Translations under genes and position numbers: made by a program
Notes under the pieces: generated by a model
Told to the model about the DNA's origin: nothing
The model's input: only the letters and a program-made list of their open reading frames with translations
Database searches by the model: none
Shown: positions 25,360-56,539 of the stretch, one piece after another
Numbering within the stretch: position 1 is the stretch's first letter
Layout: each line of letters opens with the position of its first letter
Assembly (NCBI GenBank): GCA_018831195.1
Contig: JAHJDP010000023.1
Span: 62,001-126,000 of the forward strand
DNA length: 64,000 nucleotides
Direction of reading: 5' to 3'
DNA from: Candidatus Eisenbacteria bacterium
GTDB taxonomy: Bacteria; Eisenbacteria; RBG-16-71-46; CAIMUX01; JAHJDP01

Positions 25360-25766
25360 TTTTTTTAAAACCGGGATCATCGGGGGGGGCGTCGTTCGGG
25401 GATGATGAATCCTCCGGCAAACCGCCGGCCAGGGTAAAAAAATCATCCGGCAGGCCGCGGGCCGGGGATGATGAATTCTCCGGCGAGCCCATGCAACTGC
25501 CCATTGAGGATGTGATTGATCTCCACGCCTTCCACCCGCGCGACATTCCCGATGTGGTGGCGGATTACCTTTGGGAGGCGGTGGACCGCGGATTTTCAGA
25601 AGTCCGGATCATTCATGGGAAAGGAACGGGCTATCAAAAAGATGTCGTGACCGAAATTTTGAAGAGCCATCCGGCCGTGGAGTCCTTCGCTTCCGCTCCA
25701 CCGGAACGAGGACATTGGGGAGCCACTGTCGTCCGGCTGCGTCAAGTCAACGGAGGTAAATCTTAA
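25356..25766 (+). CDS. Smr-domain protein with repetitive N-terminal region
   Basis: 136 residues starting at the ATG that overlaps the osmC stop (ATGA at 25356-25359). The last about 85 residues are a Smr domain: VIDLHAFHPRDIPDVVADYL and VRIIHGKGTGYQKDVV hold the DLH and HGKG motifs of the MutS2-type endonuclease family, and the end is GATVVRLR. The first about 45 residues are Gly/Ser/Asp-rich and contain two copies of a GDDE(S/F)SG unit, from an internal DNA repeat. A role in RNA or branched-DNA cleavage is known for relatives. Its final A is the first base of the next gene's ATG, so three different functions are chained here with no gaps. Confidence 0.85.
   Translation: MIFLKPGSSGGASFGDDESSGKPPARVKKSSGRPRAGDDEFSGEPMQLPIEDVIDLHAFHPRDIPDVVADYLWEAVDRGFSEVRIIHGKGTGYQKDVVTEILKSHPAVESFASAPPERGHWGATVVRLRQVNGGKS
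25398..25484 (+). repeat. Direct repeat inside the Smr gene
   Basis: The 21-base unit at 25398-25418 recurs at 25464-25484 with one mismatch (GGGGATGATGAAT then C or T then CTCCGGC), 66 bases apart and in frame. It encodes GDDESSG and GDDEFSG in the low-complexity N-terminus, suggesting internal duplication of a linker. Confidence 0.6.
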
Positions 25767-45954: not shown

Positions 45955-46051
45955 CATGACCTCCACCTTCTCCAGAAACTCTTACTATATAATGAATATC
46001 GACAAAAAGTCCCGAAAAACGCCGCATTGGGAGCCTCGTCATAGTCGCGTT

Positions 46052-46073
46052 AGCGTAATCCAATCATTACGTT
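46052..46073. promoter_or_regulatory. Inverted repeat upstream of ferredoxin-AOR genes
   Basis: AGCGTAAT and ATTACGTT flank CCAATC, an 8-base inverted repeat with one mismatch, in the 308-base region between the divergent aminotransferase and ferredoxin genes. The size and position suit an operator for a dimeric regulator. Palindromes of this length can occur by chance, so it is a candidate only. Confidence 0.35.
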
Positions 46074-46262
46074 ACGTCAACACGGCTGACGCCGGCGGCC
46101 GGTCTCTGACCGTTGACGAACCGGCCCGCCATGGGTACATTAAGAGGTGGCGGATGTCTTTTCTGCAGCCGATCATTTTTGTTCGGCGCCCCGACTCCGG
46201 CCGAAGTCGGATGCCCATTCCCGCCCTCATGAAATACCATTGGTTTGAGGATGGAGGCCTCG

Positions 46263-46649
46263 ATGAAGATTCAGGTCCTGCAAGAGAAATGCACGGGTTG
46301 CAGACTCTGCGAGCAGATCTGCACCATTCACCACTGCAAAGAGATTAATCCCAAGAAATCAGCGATTCGCATCAAGGCGGAATTCCCCGTGCCGGGCGTC
46401 TTTATTCCGAAGCTCTGCGATCAATGTGGGGATTGTATAGAAGTCTGTCCTTCAAACGCCATTTCGAAAAAGGACGATGCCGTTGTCATTGATCCCGACG
46501 AATGTTCCAATTGTGGACTCTGCGTTCAGGAATGTCCAACCGGCGTCATCTACGAGCATCCCGATATGGAGACACCGATTATCTGTGATCTCTGTTTGAA
46601 ATGCACCGAGGTGTGCAACACGGGCGCGCTTGTCGTTATCGATGATTGA
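46263..46649 (+). CDS. Ferredoxin with four cysteine clusters (4Fe-4S), AOR partner
   Basis: 128 residues from the ATG at 46263 (GGAGG at 46253-46257). Cysteine groups: CTGCRLCEQIC, CDQCGDCIEVCP, CSNCGLCVQECP and CDLCLKCTEVC. The central two have the classical CxxCxxCxxxCP layout, and the outer two are related, so up to four 4Fe-4S centres are possible. It lies 19 bases upstream of the aldehyde ferredoxin oxidoreductase gene and is likely its electron acceptor. Cytoplasmic. Confidence 0.88.
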   Translation: MKIQVLQEKCTGCRLCEQICTIHHCKEINPKKSAIRIKAEFPVPGVFIPKLCDQCGDCIEVCPSNAISKKDDAVVIDPDECSNCGLCVQECPTGVIYEHPDMETPIICDLCLKCTEVCNTGALVVIDD

Positions 46650-46668
46650 TGAAAGGAGCAAGAGCAAG

Positions 46669-48585
46669 ATGAACGGATTCGGAGGAACCACGCTGCGGAT
46701 CAATCTCGCCACGGGGGACATCCGCCGGGAGCCGACATCGGAGAAGATGGCGCGTGAGTGGATGGGCGCCCGCGGTTTTGTTTCGAAGATTCTGTATGAA
46801 GAGGTTCCCCGGGACGCCGATCCGCTGGGACCGGATAATATTTTCATCATGGCCCCGGGCGTCTTGACCGGATCCTTCGCGCCCGCCGGCTCGAAGATCG
46901 GATTCGGATGCATCTCCCCCGCCACCAACGGCCATGCCGATTCGAGTATGGGCGGGCACCTCGGACCCGAACTGAAATATGCCGGTTACGACTATATCAT
47001 TTTGGAAAAGATCGCATCGGAACCCTCCTATATCTATATCGATAACGACACGGTTGAGATCCGCCCCGCCGGTGATTATTGGGGCATGGGATCGCTTGAC
47101 CTGGAAGCCCGCATGAAGACGGATCTCGGCGAGGAATTCCAGATCGCGACCATCGGTCCGGCCGGCGAAAACGGCGTCGTCTTCTCCTGCATCTCGCACG
47201 ATTTCGGCCGCCAGGCGGGCCGCTGCGGCGTCGGCGCCGTGATGGGCTCCAAAAAGATCAAGGCGATCGCCGTTCGCGGCACGAAATCACTTCCGGTCTA
47301 CGATATCGAGAAACACACGCAGCTGACCTATGACATTATTCAGCGGACAAAGACCCATCCAAACATGGCGCCCTGGCAGAAATATGGCACCTCCTTCTTT
47401 GTGGGTTGGTCGAACGAGCGGGGTTGCTTTCCCACCAAGAATTTCCAGACAACATATTTCAACGGCTGGGAACATATCGACGGCGAGCGCTTCGTCAAAG
47501 ATTGTGTTGTGACCGACAAGGCCTGTTTCGGCTGCTGGATGAACTGCGGGAAATACGCCGTGGCCAGGATCCCCGGCAAGCCGGACGCTTATCTCGAAGG
47601 ACCCGAATACGAGACACTGGCCCTGATCGGCGGCAATTGCGCCATGACCGATATCAATCATGTCGCCTATGCAAATTACCTCTGCGACAACCTCGGCATC
47701 GACACGATGAGCGGCGGCGCCTCCGTCGCCCTCGGAATGGAGTGCTATCAGAAGGGCCTCATCACAAAGGACGATCTCGAGGGGCATGAGCTGCGCTGGG
47801 GCAACATCGACGATTTTGAACATTTCACGCGGATGATCGTTGAGAAGCGTGGGATTGGCGCCGCTTTCTCCAGGGGAACGAAGCGGGCGGCGGATCACAT
47901 CGGCGGCGACGCGCCGAAGTTTATCTCACAGGCCAAGGGAATGGAGTTCAGCGGATATGACACGCGCTGGTATCCGTCACAGCTTCTCTCCTTCTGCACC
48001 GCCGATATCGGCGCGCATCACAATCGCAGCTGGGCGATCACGGCCGATCTCGAGCTCGGCCGCGAAACGATCGAGGGCAAAGCGGCGGTTGTAATTTATC
48101 TGCAGCATATCCGGCCCTTGTTTGATTCATGGAGCTGCTGCCGTCTCTTCTGGGGCGAGTTGGACATTACACCCGAGGAGCATGTCGAGTCGATCAACTG
48201 CCTGACCGGCTGGGATCTGACGATCGAAGAAGCGTATCGCATCTCCGAGAAGATCTGGAACCTGACCCGCGCGCATTATATCGAACGCAACGGCGGACCG
48301 GGGCGGGATCACGACCAGGCGCCGATCCGGCATCTCGAGGAGCCGGTTCCCGACGGCCCCGCACAGGGCAAGATGGTCGGCCGGGAAAACTTCGAGCGGC
48401 TTTTGGATGACTATTACAAAAACCGTGGCTGGGCCAAAAACGGCAATCCCACGCGGGAGATTCTCGAGGATCTCGGCCTCGGCTTCGCGGCGGACAATCT
48501 CGAGAAGATTGGGCAGCTGGGCGCGCCCATCCCCGGCGGCATCCCGGCGGTTCGCGGCCAGAAACTGAAACCGAAGGCGATGTAG
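46669..48585 (+). CDS. aor: Aldehyde ferredoxin oxidoreductase (tungsten/molybdenum enzyme)
   Basis: 638 residues from the ATG at 46669, with AAAGGAG about ten bases upstream. Oxidises aldehydes to carboxylates with ferredoxin. Family features: an N-terminal GTTLRINLATGDIRRE, GRQAGRCGVGAVMGSKKIKA, the cluster Cys set in ACFGCWMNCGKYA (Cys286, 289, 293) with Cys490/491 in SWSCCRLFWG, and the pterin-binding GMEFSGYDTRWYPSQLL-type segment. Length is normal. It is preceded by a ferredoxin and followed by a MoaD-like carrier that could supply its own pterin. Between about 48187 and 48210 is the stretch that recurs in degenerate form at 53923. Confidence 0.93.
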   Translation: MNGFGGTTLRINLATGDIRREPTSEKMAREWMGARGFVSKILYEEVPRDADPLGPDNIFIMAPGVLTGSFAPAGSKIGFGCISPATNGHADSSMGGHLGPELKYAGYDYIILEKIASEPSYIYIDNDTVEIRPAGDYWGMGSLDLEARMKTDLGEEFQIATIGPAGENGVVFSCISHDFGRQAGRCGVGAVMGSKKIKAIAVRGTKSLPVYDIEKHTQLTYDIIQRTKTHPNMAPWQKYGTSFFVGWSNERGCFPTKNFQTTYFNGWEHIDGERFVKDCVVTDKACFGCWMNCGKYAVARIPGKPDAYLEGPEYETLALIGGNCAMTDINHVAYANYLCDNLGIDTMSGGASVALGMECYQKGLITKDDLEGHELRWGNIDDFEHFTRMIVEKRGIGAAFSRGTKRAADHIGGDAPKFISQAKGMEFSGYDTRWYPSQLLSFCTADIGAHHNRSWAITADLELGRETIEGKAAVVIYLQHIRPLFDSWSCCRLFWGELDITPEEHVESINCLTGWDLTIEEAYRISEKIWNLTRAHYIERNGGPGRDHDQAPIRHLEEPVPDGPAQGKMVGRENFERLLDDYYKNRGWAKNGNPTREILEDLGLGFAADNLEKIGQLGAPIPGGIPAVRGQKLKPKAM

Positions 48586-48623
48586 GGCGGGTTGACTTTG
48601 GGGCGGCTGAAAGCGGGACTCAC

Positions 48624-48863
48624 ATGAAGATAACTCTTCGCGCCGGTGGAATCCTTAAGAACAAGCTGAAGACCGACGCCGACGAACACACGATGACGAT
48701 CGAGACGAAGGAGGGTCTCACATTAAGAGAGATCCTCAAGCAGGCCGACGTGCCTGAAGAATTCGTCGCCTTCGCCATCGTCGCGGGCGAGGTGCAGAGG
48801 CTGAAATATGTTCCGAAGGATGGTGATGAGATCACGCTTCAGCCGCCTGTTTCCGGCGGGTGA
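48624..48863 (+). CDS. MoaD/ThiS-like sulfur carrier for the AOR cofactor
   Basis: 79 residues. A beta-grasp pattern (MKITLRAGGILKN, LREILKQADV, YVPKDGDEITLQPPVSGG) ends in the Gly-Gly tail needed for thiocarboxylate formation. It lies 38 bases after the AOR gene, and AOR-type enzymes need the tungsten/molybdopterin cofactor whose dithiolene sulfur comes from MoaD. No MoaE, MoeB or other Mo-cofactor gene is nearby. Its last about 75 bases and 45 bases of downstream sequence are repeated 5163 bases further on. Confidence 0.88.
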   Translation: MKITLRAGGILKNKLKTDADEHTMTIETKEGLTLREILKQADVPEEFVAFAIVAGEVQRLKYVPKDGDEITLQPPVSGG

Positions 48864-48908
48864 TTTCTTCATGGTTTCCTGCTGGAATTGCTGCGATGAA
48901 CCCGCACC
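48789..48908 (+). repeat. Left copy of a 120-base direct repeat (3' end of moaD)
   Basis: Matches 53952-54071 with 3 mismatches in 120 bases; the tract 48818-48908 is identical over 91 bases. It includes the moaD stop codon (48861-48863) and 45 bases beyond. Identity stops abruptly at 48908/54071. The two copies bracket the island described in the findings. Confidence 0.95.
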
Positions 48909-49694
48909 CCTGCTCTCAAGTTGCACCAATCAATGCAACTAGACGTTCTGTAAAACTATGCGGGGTCCTGACGCGCCCTCCGTCCATTCTCTTCTCTGTG
49001 AAGCCATTATCATCAAAATCGCTACATCCGCTTAACGTAAGTTATCGCAAACTCGAGCGAATAATATCACTTGAGACCTGATCGGTTCAACTCGCAATAG
49101 GACCCACAAATGGACTCAAACTGAGCCTTGGATCGGACCACGATGGTTGCCGCCTTCAATTACTGGCGGGCCGACACCTAGATGATGGCGCACATTCAAG
49201 CCGCATCGCATGTGTCATATTCAACGCCGCGCTTGCTATAACATTAACAGAATCGCAACGTCAACCACAACGTTTCCCCGCGATCATCCCATAACACCAC
49301 TTTGCCCCGGAACACAACAAGTCCGCGCGGCACGGGAAATGATAGAATGACTGGCTTTTCAGGACACTTCGTGGATCTTAAGTCTGGCGGGCAAAATTCA
49401 TGTGACTTGAGCATTGGCTCGTCTTCTACATTGCATTCGCTTCCACAAAGATGCGAAATCTGCATTCCCGTCACGCCTGTTTGGAGCCACGATGAGCAAG
49501 CCGGGGGCAGATTTGGCGATTTTAACTCCCATGGGACGATTCAGCGACAGAAATTCGGCCCTCTTTATCATTTTCTAGATATCTGAGGGACCTCAAACGC
49601 AGGCACTATGCTGTGATATTAAGGGTTAGCCGATCCGACCCGTTTAAGAGCCAATGCCATTGGGTCCAACCAATCGAGAATCGTGAACAGAGAA
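48909..49694. other. Gene-poor left part of the island
   Basis: No convincing gene in about 790 bases. Two short open frames overlap on opposite strands near 49244-49586 (76 residues on minus from a GTG at 49474; 94 residues on plus from 49302). Neither has a good Shine-Dalgarno, recognisable domain or consistent composition. The region becomes visibly more AT-rich than the flanks toward its right end. Confidence 0.4.
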
Positions 49695-50207
49695 TCACCG
49701 AGTCTCCGTGTAGTTTAACTTGATGCTTCCCCAAGTAGTGATTTGAATCGGTGTTATTCCCTCCGGGTACGTAGCAAGCAGCAGGTAGGAATCATTCGCA
49801 TCATATACGTCTTCATACCCCTCGATGTCTATAATATATGTTCCCGTCGGCATATTTGATTCATGAATCTCTTCATCCTCTGATCCCCAGTTATTTGAAA
49901 ATGCCACCCAATCCCAGGAATCTTCTTCTGGATTGTACCTAAACAAATAAAGATCATAATCAGCTGGAAGCGAAGTTAGTGATATATCAATTGCACCAGC
50001 AATCGTGACTTCAAATGTATAGAGATCTACATCACCAGGAACAGAAATCCATGATTCATATGTGATTCCGCTTTCGATGGGATACGCATCCTCAATCGTG
50101 TTATTTGGTTCAAATGAATCTTCAGCAGATGCAATTCCTGTAGCGCCGACTAATAGAATTGTAAACAGGCACAAGATAAACACCAGGCCGCTATTTCTGG
50201 TTTTCAT
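49695..50207 (-). CDS. Secreted protein with a pre-peptidase C-terminal (PPC)-type domain
   Basis: 170 residues; GGGAGAG precedes the ATG. The signal peptide is LVFILCLFTILLVGATGIAS then AED. The body reads SFEPNNTIEDAYPI, YESWISVPGDVDLYTFEVTI, DISLTSLPADYDLYLFRYNP and GTYIIDIEGY, the hallmarks of the PPC beta-sandwich usually attached to secreted peptidases. Here it stands alone, without a catalytic domain or a FlgD-like tag. The coding sequence is much more AT-rich than the rest of the window and lies inside the repeat-bounded island, consistent with transfer. It is divergent from the beta-helix gene. Confidence 0.75.
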   Translation of the reverse strand: MKTRNSGLVFILCLFTILLVGATGIASAEDSFEPNNTIEDAYPIESGITYESWISVPGDVDLYTFEVTIAGAIDISLTSLPADYDLYLFRYNPEEDSWDWVAFSNNWGSEDEEIHESNMPTGTYIIDIEGYEDVYDANDSYLLLATYPEGITPIQITTWGSIKLNYTETR

Positions 50208-50355
50208 ACCTCACTCTCCCTTTTCATTTATTAAACTGTTGGCTTGCTATTCATCGGCATGAATCACCAATAGCTTGTGTGATCATTAGTCACTGATAAG
50301 GATACATCAACTGATGAGATTTTTGTAGATCCCAACATTCCTTGTGGAGGCAGGC

Positions 50356-50372
50356 TTAGAGTTTAACTCTAA
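50356..50372. promoter_or_regulatory. 17-base palindrome upstream of the beta-helix gene
   Basis: TTAGAGTT, one T, AACTCTAA: a perfect 8-base inverted repeat about 200 bases before the GTG at 50574. It could be an operator or a small hairpin. No regulator gene is nearby. Confidence 0.35.
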
Positions 50373-50412
50373 TCCTGGACCGATCCTGGGGGTCAGGCCA
50401 GGTCCGTAACCG

Positions 50413-50442
50413 GGGGTTAGGAATGAGTCACATCCTAACTCC
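50413..50442. repeat. REP-like hairpin upstream of the beta-helix gene
   Basis: GGGGTTAGGA (50413-50422) pairs with TCCTAACTCC (50433-50442) with one G-U, around a 10-base loop. Just upstream is TGGGGGTCAGGCCAGG (50387-50402), reminiscent of the GGGGTCAGG ends of REP elements moved by Y1 (RAYT) transposases. No transposase is present, so a remnant at most. Confidence 0.35.
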
Positions 50443-50573
50443 AACTCCGACAGCCGGATGGCCTCTACCGAAGGAACAACAGATATTCCGGATACAGACT
50501 GCTCGAGAGAGATGCTATACTATTCCTGAATCTCAAGCGCCCTATCGCCATGAATTGTCGAAGGGAGGCTCCC

Positions 50574-53500
50574 GTGACTTGCCGCTCCTGGCCTCTATTT
50601 CTGCTGATCCTGCTGATACCGGATCAGTGTGCCCTTTCGAGTGAGATTCTACGCGTCGATCCCATCAACGGGCCATTTTATACAATTCAGTCAGCCATCG
50701 ATTCATGCGAAGCATACGACATTGTCGAGCTGGCGCCGGCCTCATTCGATGAATCGGTCACCATAGAAACCAAGAGCATCACCATCCGGTCCACCGACGG
50801 CCCCGCGGCCACGATCTGGGATGGATCGGGGCAGCACCGCCTCATTTTGGCGGCTGATTGCAACCTCACGCTCGAAGGGATCACATTCCAGAATGGTTGG
50901 ACCGATGTCGGCGGAGGCGGCGCCGTCCGAGCCCGCCATTCTATTCTGCAGATTCAGGATTGCGCTTTCCGCGGGAATGTCGTCGGTTGTGCGCCAACGG
51001 GACGGACTCAAGGAGGCGCCATCTATTTAAGCGGCAGTAACAGCGGAGTCGATATCCGCCGCAGCCTGTTCGTGGAGAATCGGACAATTGGTGACATGAA
51101 TAATGGCGGGGCCGTCGCTTTTACAATATTCGATTCAGGTTTGAATCCGAATTCGGACGCCGCTGATCCTGCGCTTCAGGCCAACCCTGGCTCAATGACG
51201 ATTGAGGACTGCACCTTCCTTCGCAATGTCTCCGGGTGGGATGGCTCCGCGGTTATGGACTGGGTCTCGAGTGTGCTTTCTGTCCAGCGTTGTCTCTTTA
51301 TTGAAAACAGGAGACTGGGCGGCCTAAGGACAGGTGGTATATTCACACTCAGCTCGGGTCTTTTGAATCTCCACTGCTGTCTGATTTGGGAAGAGTCCTC
51401 CCCGGTAATCGATGATCGCGAGTTGCTCGCACAAGAAAATCTTGCCGGTTACTTCTATGCTGATCCACGGATATGTCCGGACGATCCGGAGACTATCCAC
51501 GAGAGTTCGCCGGCTTTGACCTGGCTGGGGTGCCCGGATATCGGCAATCTGCCGGTCGGATGCCGTGGTCCCATTGTCCTGTCGGTTCGAGCGCATCCCC
51601 TCAATCCTGAGGCAGCCCAGATAATCCGCATTTATGGGTATGGTTTGGACGAGGTAGATGGAGCAACGCTCGAATCTTCGGAGGGAGAGATCTACGAGGA
51701 TGTTCGGCTTTCTCATGACGACACGTGGCTTGCCGTCACATTTGATCTTTTGGGAGCGGATCCGGGATCATGGACGCTTCGGCTGTTTGAAGGTGGTGAG
51801 CCTGTGGCCTCGCTGGAAGAGGCCGTTACGGTGCTCCCATTTACAGTCCTTGCCTTCCTGGAGCCATGGATCGAAACGCGTGATAGCCGATCGCTGAAAC
51901 TGGCGCAGCGCGGATGGACGGGGGAGATAGGTCTTGAGCTGGTTCACAGCGAAATTGATGAAAGAATCCCCTTTCAAGAAATGGAGCAGATTGCTTCCGA
52001 TACCCTACTCCTGAATGCTGACTTCCAGTGGGCTGCAGATGGTGTTTATGACCTAGAGGTTACCAAAGGAACCCAAGCTGTTCGTGTTGAAGACGTTTTG
52101 TATGTAGGAATTCCCCCCGTATTGAGGGTGCCGGATGATTATGAGACAATTCCCGATGCCATCCTAGCCGCCCCTCCCGGAGCTGAGATCCAAGTGGGGG
52201 AAGGAATTTATCCGGAATCCGTCGTCGTGGACCGCCCGATCAGATTAAGAGGGCAGGGCCGGACCACCCGGATTTCACTCGCCGAAAGTGAAACAACTCG
52301 CTGCGTCCATATTCTGGAGTCCGCAGGTCGCATCACGAGAATTGACAGCCTGACTATTGAAAGGGGCGCTCCCGCATCGGGGTCAGGCGGTGGTTTACTG
52401 GCCGAGGCGCCAGTGACCGTTCATGCCTGTAATTTTTATTACAACCGTGCCGGCCTGGGTAACGGAGGGGCTGCATGCCTGGCCCCCGGCAGCCAGGTTC
52501 TCGGCTCCAACTTCATGTACAATGGATTGAACGGGGGTGAGTCCGGCGTCGTCTCGGATCCGTTTGCGGGAGCGCATGGCGTAGCTGGAGCCCTTTTTTG
52601 CCTCGATTGCCGAGTAGAAAATTCACAATTTGAGGGCAACTTCGCGCCATGTGTGGGAGCTGCTGCTGTGAGAGGTCTTTTTCGAAACAACCATCTCGGT
52701 TACAATTTTGATTCGTGGTATGAGGGGGATGGAATCGATGCCCTTGCTGCGCAGGGGGAAATTACGGGCAACCGGTTTGAAAACTCATGCGGGAGCGACG
52801 GCCCGCCCATAGCCTTCATCCTCGGTCCGTCATCTGTTTCTTACAATACATTTAGTGACTATTGGCAGGATATGTGTTATGAACTAAGCCTTGTGCAACT
52901 TCAAGGTCCCGTCGATTTCTTTCACAATACACTCGCAGGTACTGGACTCCAGATTTGTACACACATCCAAACCCCGCCTGGGCCTGGAGACAAGATTCGC
53001 ATCTATAACAATTTGATTGAATCCGGCCGGGCTCACTATCCTGACCTTTTCTATTGCCGGAGGAGGCTTGTTCTAGGCCCGGTCTTTTCGATTCCAACGA
53101 CAAATATCGAATCTTCGTGCAACCTGGGCGACGATATTGCAATCTATTCGCCCAGCGGTCGTTATGAATGTCCCGACTGCGTGCATGAGATGCATGACGT
53201 TGGATACTGCGAAGTTCCTTATGATGACGGATACCATTCTTACGGTGAATTCAACCTGAGGCTGCGTCTTAATAGCCCAGCCCTACCAAACAATTCACCG
53301 ATCGGGTGCGCGGATACACTCGGGGCGCAACCGGTGGGATGCGATGTTGTCCCGGTGCTGGTGTCCGGAGCTCAGGTCGGATTGACTGACGATGGTGTGG
53401 AATTAAGCTGGACGCTCTCGTCCGATCTTTCCGTGCTTGGCTTTGGGCTCATGCGAGAGAATGACGGGCAAAGAATCGAATTGACAGCGGAGCCCATGCC

Positions 53501-53906
53501 ACCCTGCAACCAATGCCGATACCTGGACCACGAGGCTTTGCTGCTTTCGGGCCCCACTGAATATTGGCTCACAATCCTCTGGGACAATGGGCGCGAAGAT
53601 ATCGTGCCGCTGGGCGGTCTCGCGCTCACGGCCCCGCGAGAGATGCGCCTTGACCCTCCGCATCCTAATCCCGTATCGGTCGCGGGCAGTGTCTCTTTTT
53701 ATCTACCGCGGAAATCTTATGCTCAAGTGGAGTTGATCGATGTCGCAGGACGCCGCGTGATGAAATTATTGGAGGCGTGGACGGATCCTGGGCGCACCAT
53801 CATCTCTCTCCACCAAGAAATTCCGCAACTGCAATCAGGTATCTATTGGATCCGTCTAAGCGCCGAAGGCCAATCGCGCACCCGGCGTTTCGTGGTGGTT
53901 CGATAA
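50574..53906 (+). CDS. Secreted right-handed beta-helix protein with FlgD-like C-terminal module
   Basis: 1110 residues from GTG at 50574, five bases after GGGAGG (50563-50568); the upstream ATG at 50550 would bury that site. The signal peptide is WPLFLLILLIPDQCALSS. Two parallel beta-helix regions follow: FYTIQSAIDSCEAYDIVELA through GAVRARHSILQIQDCAFRG, and VPDDYETIPDAILAAPPGAE through GGLLAEAPVTVHACNFYYN, both the pectate-lyase/NosD-like pattern. Ig-like linkers lie between, and the FlgD-like module ends it (PPHPNPVSVAGSVSFYLPRK, LIDVAGRRVMKLLEA, QLQSGIYWIRLS). WDGR is replaced by SLHQEI in this copy. Polysaccharide binding or cleavage is possible; the catalytic residues are not evident. 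It sits within the repeat-bounded island. Confidence 0.82.
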   Translation: MTCRSWPLFLLILLIPDQCALSSEILRVDPINGPFYTIQSAIDSCEAYDIVELAPASFDESVTIETKSITIRSTDGPAATIWDGSGQHRLILAADCNLTLEGITFQNGWTDVGGGGAVRARHSILQIQDCAFRGNVVGCAPTGRTQGGAIYLSGSNSGVDIRRSLFVENRTIGDMNNGGAVAFTIFDSGLNPNSDAADPALQANPGSMTIEDCTFLRNVSGWDGSAVMDWVSSVLSVQRCLFIENRRLGGLRTGGIFTLSSGLLNLHCCLIWEESSPVIDDRELLAQENLAGYFYADPRICPDDPETIHESSPALTWLGCPDIGNLPVGCRGPIVLSVRAHPLNPEAAQIIRIYGYGLDEVDGATLESSEGEIYEDVRLSHDDTWLAVTFDLLGADPGSWTLRLFEGGEPVASLEEAVTVLPFTVLAFLEPWIETRDSRSLKLAQRGWTGEIGLELVHSEIDERIPFQEMEQIASDTLLLNADFQWAADGVYDLEVTKGTQAVRVEDVLYVGIPPVLRVPDDYETIPDAILAAPPGAEIQVGEGIYPESVVVDRPIRLRGQGRTTRISLAESETTRCVHILESAGRITRIDSLTIERGAPASGSGGGLLAEAPVTVHACNFYYNRAGLGNGGAACLAPGSQVLGSNFMYNGLNGGESGVVSDPFAGAHGVAGALFCLDCRVENSQFEGNFAPCVGAAAVRGLFRNNHLGYNFDSWYEGDGIDALAAQGEITGNRFENSCGSDGPPIAFILGPSSVSYNTFSDYWQDMCYELSLVQLQGPVDFFHNTLAGTGLQICTHIQTPPGPGDKIRIYNNLIESGRAHYPDLFYCRRRLVLGPVFSIPTTNIESSCNLGDDIAIYSPSGRYECPDCVHEMHDVGYCEVPYDDGYHSYGEFNLRLRLNSPALPNNSPIGCADTLGAQPVGCDVVPVLVSGAQVGLTDDGVELSWTLSSDLSVLGFGLMRENDGQRIELTAEPMPPCNQCRYLDHEALLLSGPTEYWLTILWDNGREDIVPLGGLALTAPREMRLDPPHPNPVSVAGSVSFYLPRKSYAQVELIDVAGRRVMKLLEAWTDPGRTIISLHQEIPQLQSGIYWIRLSAEGQSRTRRFVVVR

Positions 53907-53922
53907 ATTCCGGCTCATCAAG

Positions 53923-54026
53923 GAATCAATCAACTGTCTGACCGGCATGCAGAGGTGCAGCGGCTCAAATATGTTCCGAGGGATGGTGATGAGATCACGC
54001 TTCAGCCGCCTGTTTCCGGCGGGTGA
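53923..54026 (+). pseudogene. Remnant of a second AOR-moaD pair
   Basis: 53923-53946 encodes ESINCLTG exactly as 48187-48210 in the intact AOR, but with three third-position changes (GAG/GAA, TCG/TCA, TGC/TGT). It then jumps directly to the last about 25 codons of a moaD (53952-54026) whose early bases also differ, mostly synonymously, before becoming identical to the intact copy. Everything between has been lost, including about 125 AOR codons and the first two thirds of moaD. The synonymous-only pattern shows it descends from a functional, diverged homologue. Confidence 0.8.
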
Positions 54027-54071
54027 TTTCTTCATGGTTTCCTGCTGGAATTGCTGCGATGAACCCGCACC
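53952..54071 (+). repeat. Right copy of the 120-base direct repeat
   Basis: Partner of 48789-48908 at a 5163-base offset: 117 of 120 bases identical, all three mismatches in the first 29 bases. It lies between the beta-helix gene and asnS, and ends 46 bases before the asnS stop. Confidence 0.95.
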
Positions 54072-54116
54072 AGTTCACCGCGGTAATTAATGTAATTCCG
54101 TTACTCCATCCCAATT

Positions 54117-55517
54117 TTAAAACTCGGCGTTCCCCGGCGTTCTTGGGAAGGGAATCGCATCGCGGATGTTGCCCAGACCCGTCGCGTAGTTGATGGTGCG
54201 CTCAAAGCCGAGCCCGAATCCCGCGTGGGGCACGGTGCCGTACCGCCGGAGATCGCGGTACCACCAGTAATCATCTTTGTTGAGCCCGATCTCATCGATA
54301 CGTTGATCGAGCACATCGAGCCGCTCTTCGCGCTGGCTTCCGCCGATGATCTCCCCCATGCCCGGCGCCAAGACATCCATGGCGGCGACGGTCTTGCCGT
54401 CGTCGTTAAGCCGCATATAGAAGGCTTTGATTTCTCTGGGATAGTTCACCACGATGAGAGGCGCCTTCACATGCTCCTCGGTCAGATAACGCTCATGCTC
54501 CGATTGCAGATCGACACCCCACTTTACCGGGAACTCAAAACTCTTCTTTGACTTCTCCAGCGCCGTGATCGCGTCGGTATACTCCATCCGCTCAAAGGGG
54601 GATTTGATCAGCTTCTCCAGCCGGTTGATGCAATCCTTCTCCACCCGCTTCTCAAAGAAGGCCATATCGTCAGCGCGCTCCTTTAACAGAGCGGAAAAGA
54701 TATACTTTAAGAAATCTTCAGCGAGCTGCGCGTCATCCTGGAGATCGGCAAAGGCGATCTCCGGTTCAATCATCCAGAATTCCGAGAGATGGCGGCTCGT
54801 GTTGGAGTTTTCGGCGCGGAAGGTCGGACCGAATGTATAAACCTTGCTCATGGCGAGACAATAGGTCTCGACATTGAGCTGGCCTGAGACGGCGAGGTAG
54901 GCCGGGCGGCCGAAGAAATCTTTGGTGAAGTCGATGCCGCCGCCGGGCGTCCGGGGAATGTTGGCCAGATCGAGTGTGGAGACACGGAACATTTCGCCGG
55001 CGCCTTCGGCGTCACTCGCGGCGATGATCGGCGTGTGAATCCAATAGTAACCCTGTTCGCTGAAGAACCTGTGGATGGCCATCGAGAGGCAGTGCCGCAC
55101 GCGCGCCACGGCGCCGAAGGTATTGGTGCGGGATCGAAGATGCGCCACGGTGCGCAGGTATTCTACGGTGTGGTGCTTGGGCGAAATGGGATAGGTGTCC
55201 GGATCCTCCACCCATCCGACAACGTCGATGCGCGTCGCGTGGATCTCATAGGCCTGGCCCTTCGCCGGGGATTCAACCAGTGTTCCCTCAACCATGACGG
55301 AACATCCCGCCGTTAGTTTAAGTATTTCTTCCTGGTAATTCGGCAGCGTGTTATCGGCAACAACCTGTATCGCGTCGAAACAGGATCCGTCATGTGTGTG
55401 TATAAATGAGATTCCGGCTTTTGAATCACGCCGCGTCCTGACCCATCCCTCCACGGTGACCGGCTGCCCGACCGGCGCCTTTCCGGCCAGGAGACCGGCA
55501 ATCGACATCTTGGTCAT
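54117..55517 (-). CDS. asnS: Asparaginyl-tRNA synthetase
   Basis: 466 residues. Charges tRNA-Asn with asparagine. The N-terminal OB-fold anticodon domain ([20 protein letters not shown]) is followed by the class IIb catalytic core: motif 2 [20 protein letters not shown] and motif 3 [16 protein letters not shown], with [20 protein letters not shown] between, typical of AsnRS rather than AspRS. Normal length. The ATG at 55517 has a modest AGAGGA site; MSIAGLL three codons in is an alternative. Its end is close to the right repeat copy, so the island stops just short of this essential gene. Confidence 0.95.
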
Positions 55518-55642
55518 TACTTCAAATCCTCTCCGCTGGTAAGTGAAACGGCCTTGTTATCTTTTCGCTGTCCCGTTGCTGGATTTTCACTGAATTCCCG
55601 GGGTGCGTCAACCAAGCGCCCGGAAACAGCTTTCAAAAGACC

Positions 55643-56539
55643 TTATCCGAACGTCACCAAGGCAACACCCCCCAGCCCCAGGGCGAGGCCCAGAAGACGC
55701 TTCCACGTCACCGGTTCCTTGAGCAGCAGCGCCGCGAGAAGAAAGGTCCAGATCGTCGACGTCTGGTTCAGAACCGATGCGTTTGAAACCTGTGTGTATT
55801 TCATCCCGCCGAGCCAAAGAATGAGCGAGATATAATTTCCGATAAAGGAACCGGGGATCATCACCGGCCAAACCCGAACATTCCGCAGCGAGGCGATCGC
55901 CTGCCGCCGCCGTGGAAGCAGCGGGAGAAGTAGAAGTCCGACCACGGATCCGCCGAGAAGCCGCCACCAGTTCACCCAGATAAGGGAGTGGCCGCTGAGA
56001 AGCGGCTTGACCATGACGACTGAAATCGCCGTGAAGATCATGGCTGAGATGCCGAACACCGTGCCGATGACCAGCGTCCGGCGCGAGAGCTCATTCTTCC
56101 TGCCACCCATCTTCGAGACAAAAAGAACGGCGCTTAAAATTAAAACAACACCGGCGAACTGGACCAGGGTCAGCCGCTCATCCAAAAAGAGAATGCTGAA
56201 AAGTATGATCGAAGGACTGTATGACGTTGTAATAATCGACTGCAGCCCGGCGCCGACGCGATTCAATGTCATAAAGAAAAAGGTGTCCGCCAGTCCGATC
56301 CCGATCCCGCCGCTGATGAGAAAGATCAAGTATTCCCGCCTCGGAAGGGGGGGAAGGAAATCCGCCCCCATGACGACCAGGGTCAGCGTGAAGAGGATCA
56401 ATGAGAAGAGCGTTTTAAAAATATTCAGAGCCAGCGCCGGAACCGTCTCCCCCGTTTTGCGGAAAAGAATAACCGCGAACGACCAGCTGAGCGCCGCGGC
56501 CAAAGCCATGATTTCACCGCTATAGGGGATTTTCTCCAT
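55643..56539 (-). CDS. EamA-family transporter (DMT superfamily)
   Basis: 298 residues with about ten hydrophobic helices in two EamA repeats (IMALAAALSWSFAVILFRKT and LVIGTVFGISAMIFTAISVV begin the halves; conserved YSPSIILFSILFLDERL and LNQTSTIWTFLLAALLLKEP). Family members export amino acids, nucleotides or other metabolites across the inner membrane; the substrate cannot be inferred. Start ATG at 56539. It diverges from the GHMP kinase with 66 bases between the starts. Confidence 0.9.
   Translation of the reverse strand: MEKIPYSGEIMALAAALSWSFAVILFRKTGETVPALALNIFKTLFSLILFTLTLVVMGADFLPPLPRREYLIFLISGGIGIGLADTFFFMTLNRVGAGLQSIITTSYSPSIILFSILFLDERLTLVQFAGVVLILSAVLFVSKMGGRKNELSRRTLVIGTVFGISAMIFTAISVVMVKPLLSGHSLIWVNWWRLLGGSVVGLLLLPLLPRRRQAIASLRNVRVWPVMIPGSFIGNYISLILWLGGMKYTQVSNASVLNQTSTIWTFLLAALLLKEPVTWKRLLGLALGLGGVALVTFG

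Follow-up and report, generated by a model that had tools for sequence, protein, structure and literature searches.

Positions 53923-54071 of the window, the whole 64,000-nt stretch of Candidatus Eisenbacteria DNA analysed here, probably form a recombination scar holding the 3′ remains of a second AOR-moaD copy, and the pattern of its differences from the resident operon favours an allelic source for that copy. The scar consists of an eight-codon scrap of AOR and a truncated copy of the moaD tail. The scrap is probably without function, and no open reading frame (ORF) of at least 50 aa runs through it in its own frame. The moaD tail copy is out of frame with it.

The gene order at the locus is fer4, AOR, moaD, an island of about 5 kb, the scrap, the second moaD tail and an asnS-like gene on the opposite strand. 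The resident operon, on the forward strand, is headed by a 4Fe-4S ferredoxin-like gene (fer4, 46245-46649), which is conserved with AOR in relatives. It continues with an intact AOR ORF of 651 aa (46630-48585; Pfam domains AFOR_N and AFOR_C) and an intact ORF of 79 aa for a moaD/ThiS-like sulfur carrier (48624-48863; Pfam ThiS). The intervening island (48909-53922) extends from the left copy of a direct repeat to the scrap and contains two long ORFs. One, on the reverse strand (49695-50207), encodes 170 aa with a bacterial pre-peptidase C-terminal (PPC) domain. The other, on the forward strand (50550-53906), encodes 1118 aa and includes a right-handed beta-helix region; a secretion tail is matched weakly, below the cut-off. 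The stop codon of this ORF lies 16 nt upstream of the scrap. The right flank is a class II aminoacyl-tRNA synthetase gene on the reverse strand (54117-55517; Pfam tRNA-synt_2), putatively asnS. No Rfam family matched 46000-56000 at gathering scores.

The scrap (53923-53946, forward strand) is GAATCAATCAACTGTCTGACCGGC, which translates as ESINCLTG. Its counterpart in the resident AOR (48187-48210, forward strand) is GAGTCGATCAACTGCCTGACCGGC, and the two agree at 21 of 24 bases. The three changes (resident/scrap: GAG/GAA, TCG/TCA and TGC/TGT) are all silent and in third position, as the initial annotation had reported. The match is confined to these 24 bases and ends sharply on both sides. The moaD end had been placed at once after the scrap; the tail copy does adjoin, but with five bases, ATGCA (53947-53951), in between.

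That tail copy (53952-54071, forward strand) is the right member of a direct repeat. Its reference copy (48789-48908) comprises the 3′ end of the intact moaD and the 45 noncoding bases that follow. The two copies share orientation, lie 5163 nt apart and are 97.5% identical (117 of 120 bases). All three differences fall in the first 29 nt, and the last 91 nt are identical. Two of these differences are silent and one changes Lys to Arg, so that the description of the remnant as differing only at synonymous sites holds for the eight codons of the scrap but not for the adjoining moaD piece. The window has no other direct repeat of at least 40 nt save a short tandem array at 25376-25489, where three copies with a 33-nt period are 60-77% alike.

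The match between the scrap and AOR is rare. A search of the whole genome (5,239,398 bases, both strands, at most three mismatches) returned just two sites, the scrap and the resident AOR, and the reversed pattern returned none. Within the host genome and at that tolerance there is thus no better match to an unrelated gene; such a match would have told against the AOR assignment. Among 3000 dinucleotide shuffles of the 45-nt spacer containing the scrap, none reached 21/24 against 46245-48863 (maximum 19), nor did any of 2838 other 45-mers from the window (maximum 20). When window 24-mers were scanned against 46630-48863, the top score was 20, seen once.

The scrap can also be assigned to a particular type of AOR. 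We fetched 35 named related AOR loci with 58-79% identity (best segment), of which 33 span the position of the scrap. The Cys at the fifth residue of ESINCLTG is found in none of those 33 and is private to the resident AOR and the scrap. In the alignment to AORs of related taxa that the initial annotation had proposed, the scrap matches the resident AOR best (21/24, as against at most 19/24 for the 33), and no AOR with the codons of the scrap occurs among them. With the Cys absent from all 33 and no closer match elsewhere, the scrap derives from the resident AOR type, its source being either the resident gene or an allelic version carried by a near relative.

An intact second AOR-moaD, for which the initial annotation had proposed a search, is absent from the genome by both protein and DNA searches. 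The protein search found the resident AOR and one other, on a different contig (C74) and 30% identical. The DNA search found the resident AOR-moaD and the moaD tail alone, with no further remnant apart from the scrap. Among 47 genomes of the phylum, the host's own included, an AOR match at an E value of 1e-60 or better occurs in three, and identity does not exceed 33% in the two that are not its own. Relaxing the search, in 39 relatives, gave one further AOR, 32% identical. The relatives in these searches all come from outside the family of the host genome. With no second copy and no relative of the same family, neither copy can be demonstrated to be native or incoming, and the suggestion that the scrap supplies direction and ancestry for the island is not supported. 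The newcomer could be either the intact operon together with the island, or the scrap.

When the scrap is combined with the first 30 nt of the moaD copy, five of six differences are silent, which has a probability of about 0.003 if changes were random and about 0.26 (for at least five of six) when half of them are assigned to the working resident gene. There are six differences in 52 nt and none in the next 92 nt, noncoding bases included (Fisher P 0.0018, with the boundary chosen post hoc), so the divergence signal is that of 24 plus 28 nt. Such unevenness is not expected of uniform decay after a single duplication. The repeat is a mosaic and points to recombination of diverged alleles or to subsequent gene conversion. 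The 91 identical nt that follow the diverged stretch fit a crossover there, as judged against the resident tail rather than an ancestral site.

In the resident sequence GGC occurs at both deletion edges, at 48208-48210 and at 48786-48788. This agrees with an internal deletion of some 578 nt (resident 48211-48788). The 3-nt GGC may mark illegitimate joining, at the internal deletion and not at the beta-helix joint. The initial annotation had held that the pattern requires a once-functional, diverged AOR-moaD pair, now deleted internally. The AOR derivation, the AOR-then-moaD order and orientation and the deletion edges all agree with such a pair, but they do not require it, and the silent excess is unremarkable once half of the changes are placed in the resident gene.

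We favour the following history. The second copy would most likely have been an allelic version of this operon that came from a sister strain or species. One joint would have placed the beta-helix gene beside codon 520 of this AOR′. A separate internal deletion of about 578 nt, with GGC edges and the five-base filler, would have brought codon 527 of AOR′ up against moaD′ near its codon 56. As the final 91 nt are identical to the resident tail, they would have undergone homologous exchange or gene conversion. An exchange between diverged alleles, like that in homology-facilitated illegitimate recombination (HFIR), may thereby have left one version of the operon complete and the other reduced to the scrap. 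The events needed are the joint between beta-helix gene and AOR′, the internal deletion and an event at the left border. The match, its rarity, its tie to this AOR, the mosaic of differences and the lack of a second copy are observations; the foreign or allelic origin of the second copy, the order of these events and any choice of native copy are inferences. Several points weigh against an allelic source: besides the scrap the genome has no second AOR-moaD, whole or partial; no AOR compared, none of them congeneric, has these changes; the AOR changes are of the kind seen in decay; one of the three moaD changes alters the protein; the silent excess loses significance when half of the changes are placed in the resident gene; and the divergence is confined to 24 plus 28 nt.

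A duplication within the host's own lineage we consider possible though unlikely. AOR-moaD would have been duplicated in tandem with its downstream neighbours, the right copy would have become nonfunctional and been cut to the scrap, and gene conversion would have kept the last 91 nt identical. The same-orientation direct repeat 5163 nt apart is in its favour. So is the direction of the three AOR changes, all of them transitions from G/C in the resident to A/T in the scrap, which is also expected of plain decay; the silent changes, too, would be no surprise had many of them arisen in the working copy. Against this, conversion would have had to be limited to the last 91 nt, leaving six differences in the 52 nt before. 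Most of the duplication must also have been lost, as the genome holds neither another DNA copy of the beta-helix gene nor any further AOR remnant.

A more specific account, to which we give about the same limited credence, is a swap of the whole AOR operon between Eisenbacteria-like sister species. The incoming AOR-moaD would have brought its own downstream neighbours, including debris of a repeat whose copies elsewhere in the genome share their contigs with integron-like features. The native operon would have been cut to a 24-nt signature with native codons.

The setting of the operon was compared with that in relatives. In these, moeB/thiF lies within 400 nt after moaD in 22 of the 26 loci where the moaD end is covered, the nine of 35 loci with moaD cut or missing having been excluded beforehand. 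In this window moeB is missing after moaD, which is followed by 48864-48908, and the sole ThiF gene of the genome is about 100 kb off on the same contig. As the gene is usual in relatives and missing here, this end of the operon has been rearranged, in keeping with the favoured reading. On the left, an aminotransferase upstream of fer4 is common to seven of the 35 loci, which places the left of the operon in a conserved setting; that setting does not discriminate, because an incoming operon from a congener would share it. On the right, asnS was found by tblastn at none of the 35 AOR loci of relatives, many of which are short, and inspection by eye of the neighbours of asnS in relatives gave no useful match to this site.

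Part of the island (48988-49664, forward strand) belongs to a dispersed family of noncoding repeats, some 450-700 bp long, that occurs on four other small contigs (C60, C115, C71 and C51) at 68-74% identity to the window copy. At that identity the repeat part of the island seems far older than the flanking direct repeat, whose copies are 97.5% identical. A search of the repeat contigs gave no hit for the left island edge (48909-49010). Of 14 matches to an integron-integrase profile across the genome, none lies in the island. A strict attC pattern found no site on the repeat contigs, so that any integron link is tentative.

Several further observations concern these repeats and contigs. One integron integrase scored above the curated cut-off (441 bits); a TGA interrupts a second match (C69:1123-2064; C65:3625-4332). 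Short hairpin-like repeats near the second match recur on contigs with the dispersed repeat. A scan found IS66 transposase on some of the contigs bearing that repeat, and some also carry ORFs that we take to be type I restriction-modification-like and SIR2-like. A G-rich stretch of about 50 nt in the island (50351-50400) has 82-87% identical copies on contigs C94 and C78. Transposon insertion was considered for the island and rejected: the flanking direct repeat is 120 nt rather than a short target-site duplication, and no inverted repeat of at least 20 nt is present at the borders.

Error-prone break repair, in which a polymerase switched templates, copied short AOR and moaD pieces and left errors clustered near the joints, is improbable. 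All six differences do lie within 30 nt of a joint, and the pieces are short, with a five-base filler. However, a random process would seldom leave five of six differences silent, and the AOR-moaD order and orientation are kept, which a simple deletion explains. Still less probable is an assembly artefact, two strain variants joined at the 120-nt repeat of a metagenome-assembled genome. The repeat is about as long as a short read, the genome comprises 123 contigs, and the named relatives are metagenome assemblies, so this genome is probably one too; but overlap of strain variants is insufficient to fuse a 24-nt AOR piece to moaD over a 578-nt gap, for which a real rearranged molecule is needed. 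Chance resemblance of the spacer to AOR is the most improbable of all: the match is of just 24 bases in a region picked out by eye, but no control reached its score, only two sites exist in 5.24 Mb, the differences are silent and in frame, and the scrap directly adjoins the moaD copy.

If the favoured reading, remains of a second, allelic AOR-moaD copy, is right, a few dozen bases record that two diverged versions of one metabolic operon once met in one cell. The six marked sites could then be used to probe congeneric genomes, once these exist, for the donor or native species. The scar adds nothing new on AOR function.

The locus has points in common with three known situations. Integration at the 3′ ends of genes leaves the inserted DNA flanked by a direct repeat made up of the gene end and bases downstream of it. 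Here likewise a direct gene-end repeat stands at both island borders (48789-48908 and 53952-54071); unlike such integrations, the island has no integrase gene detectable with the integron-integrase profile, and the displaced tail carries a fused AOR scrap.

In Vibrio cholerae T6SS arrays, an incoming module replaces an older version of the same type of gene and a 3′ piece of the old unit stays downstream (PMC5361080). By that account the displaced tails are like the present one in being a 3′ piece of an older unit lying downstream, but whole immunity genes are often kept there, whereas the present locus retains no more than 24 nt of AOR and a broken moaD tail, under no apparent selection.

In HFIR, incoming DNA forms a homology joint on one side and an illegitimate joint on the other, mostly with 3 to 10 bp of microhomology, and local sequence is lost (PMC3240628). 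This locus differs from HFIR scars in that its GGC belongs to the internal deletion, not to an island joint that has been proven, and in that it retains a duplication of 120 nt. The locus is probably an ordinary recombination scar, and by analogy with what that source describes it resembles the products of HFIR.
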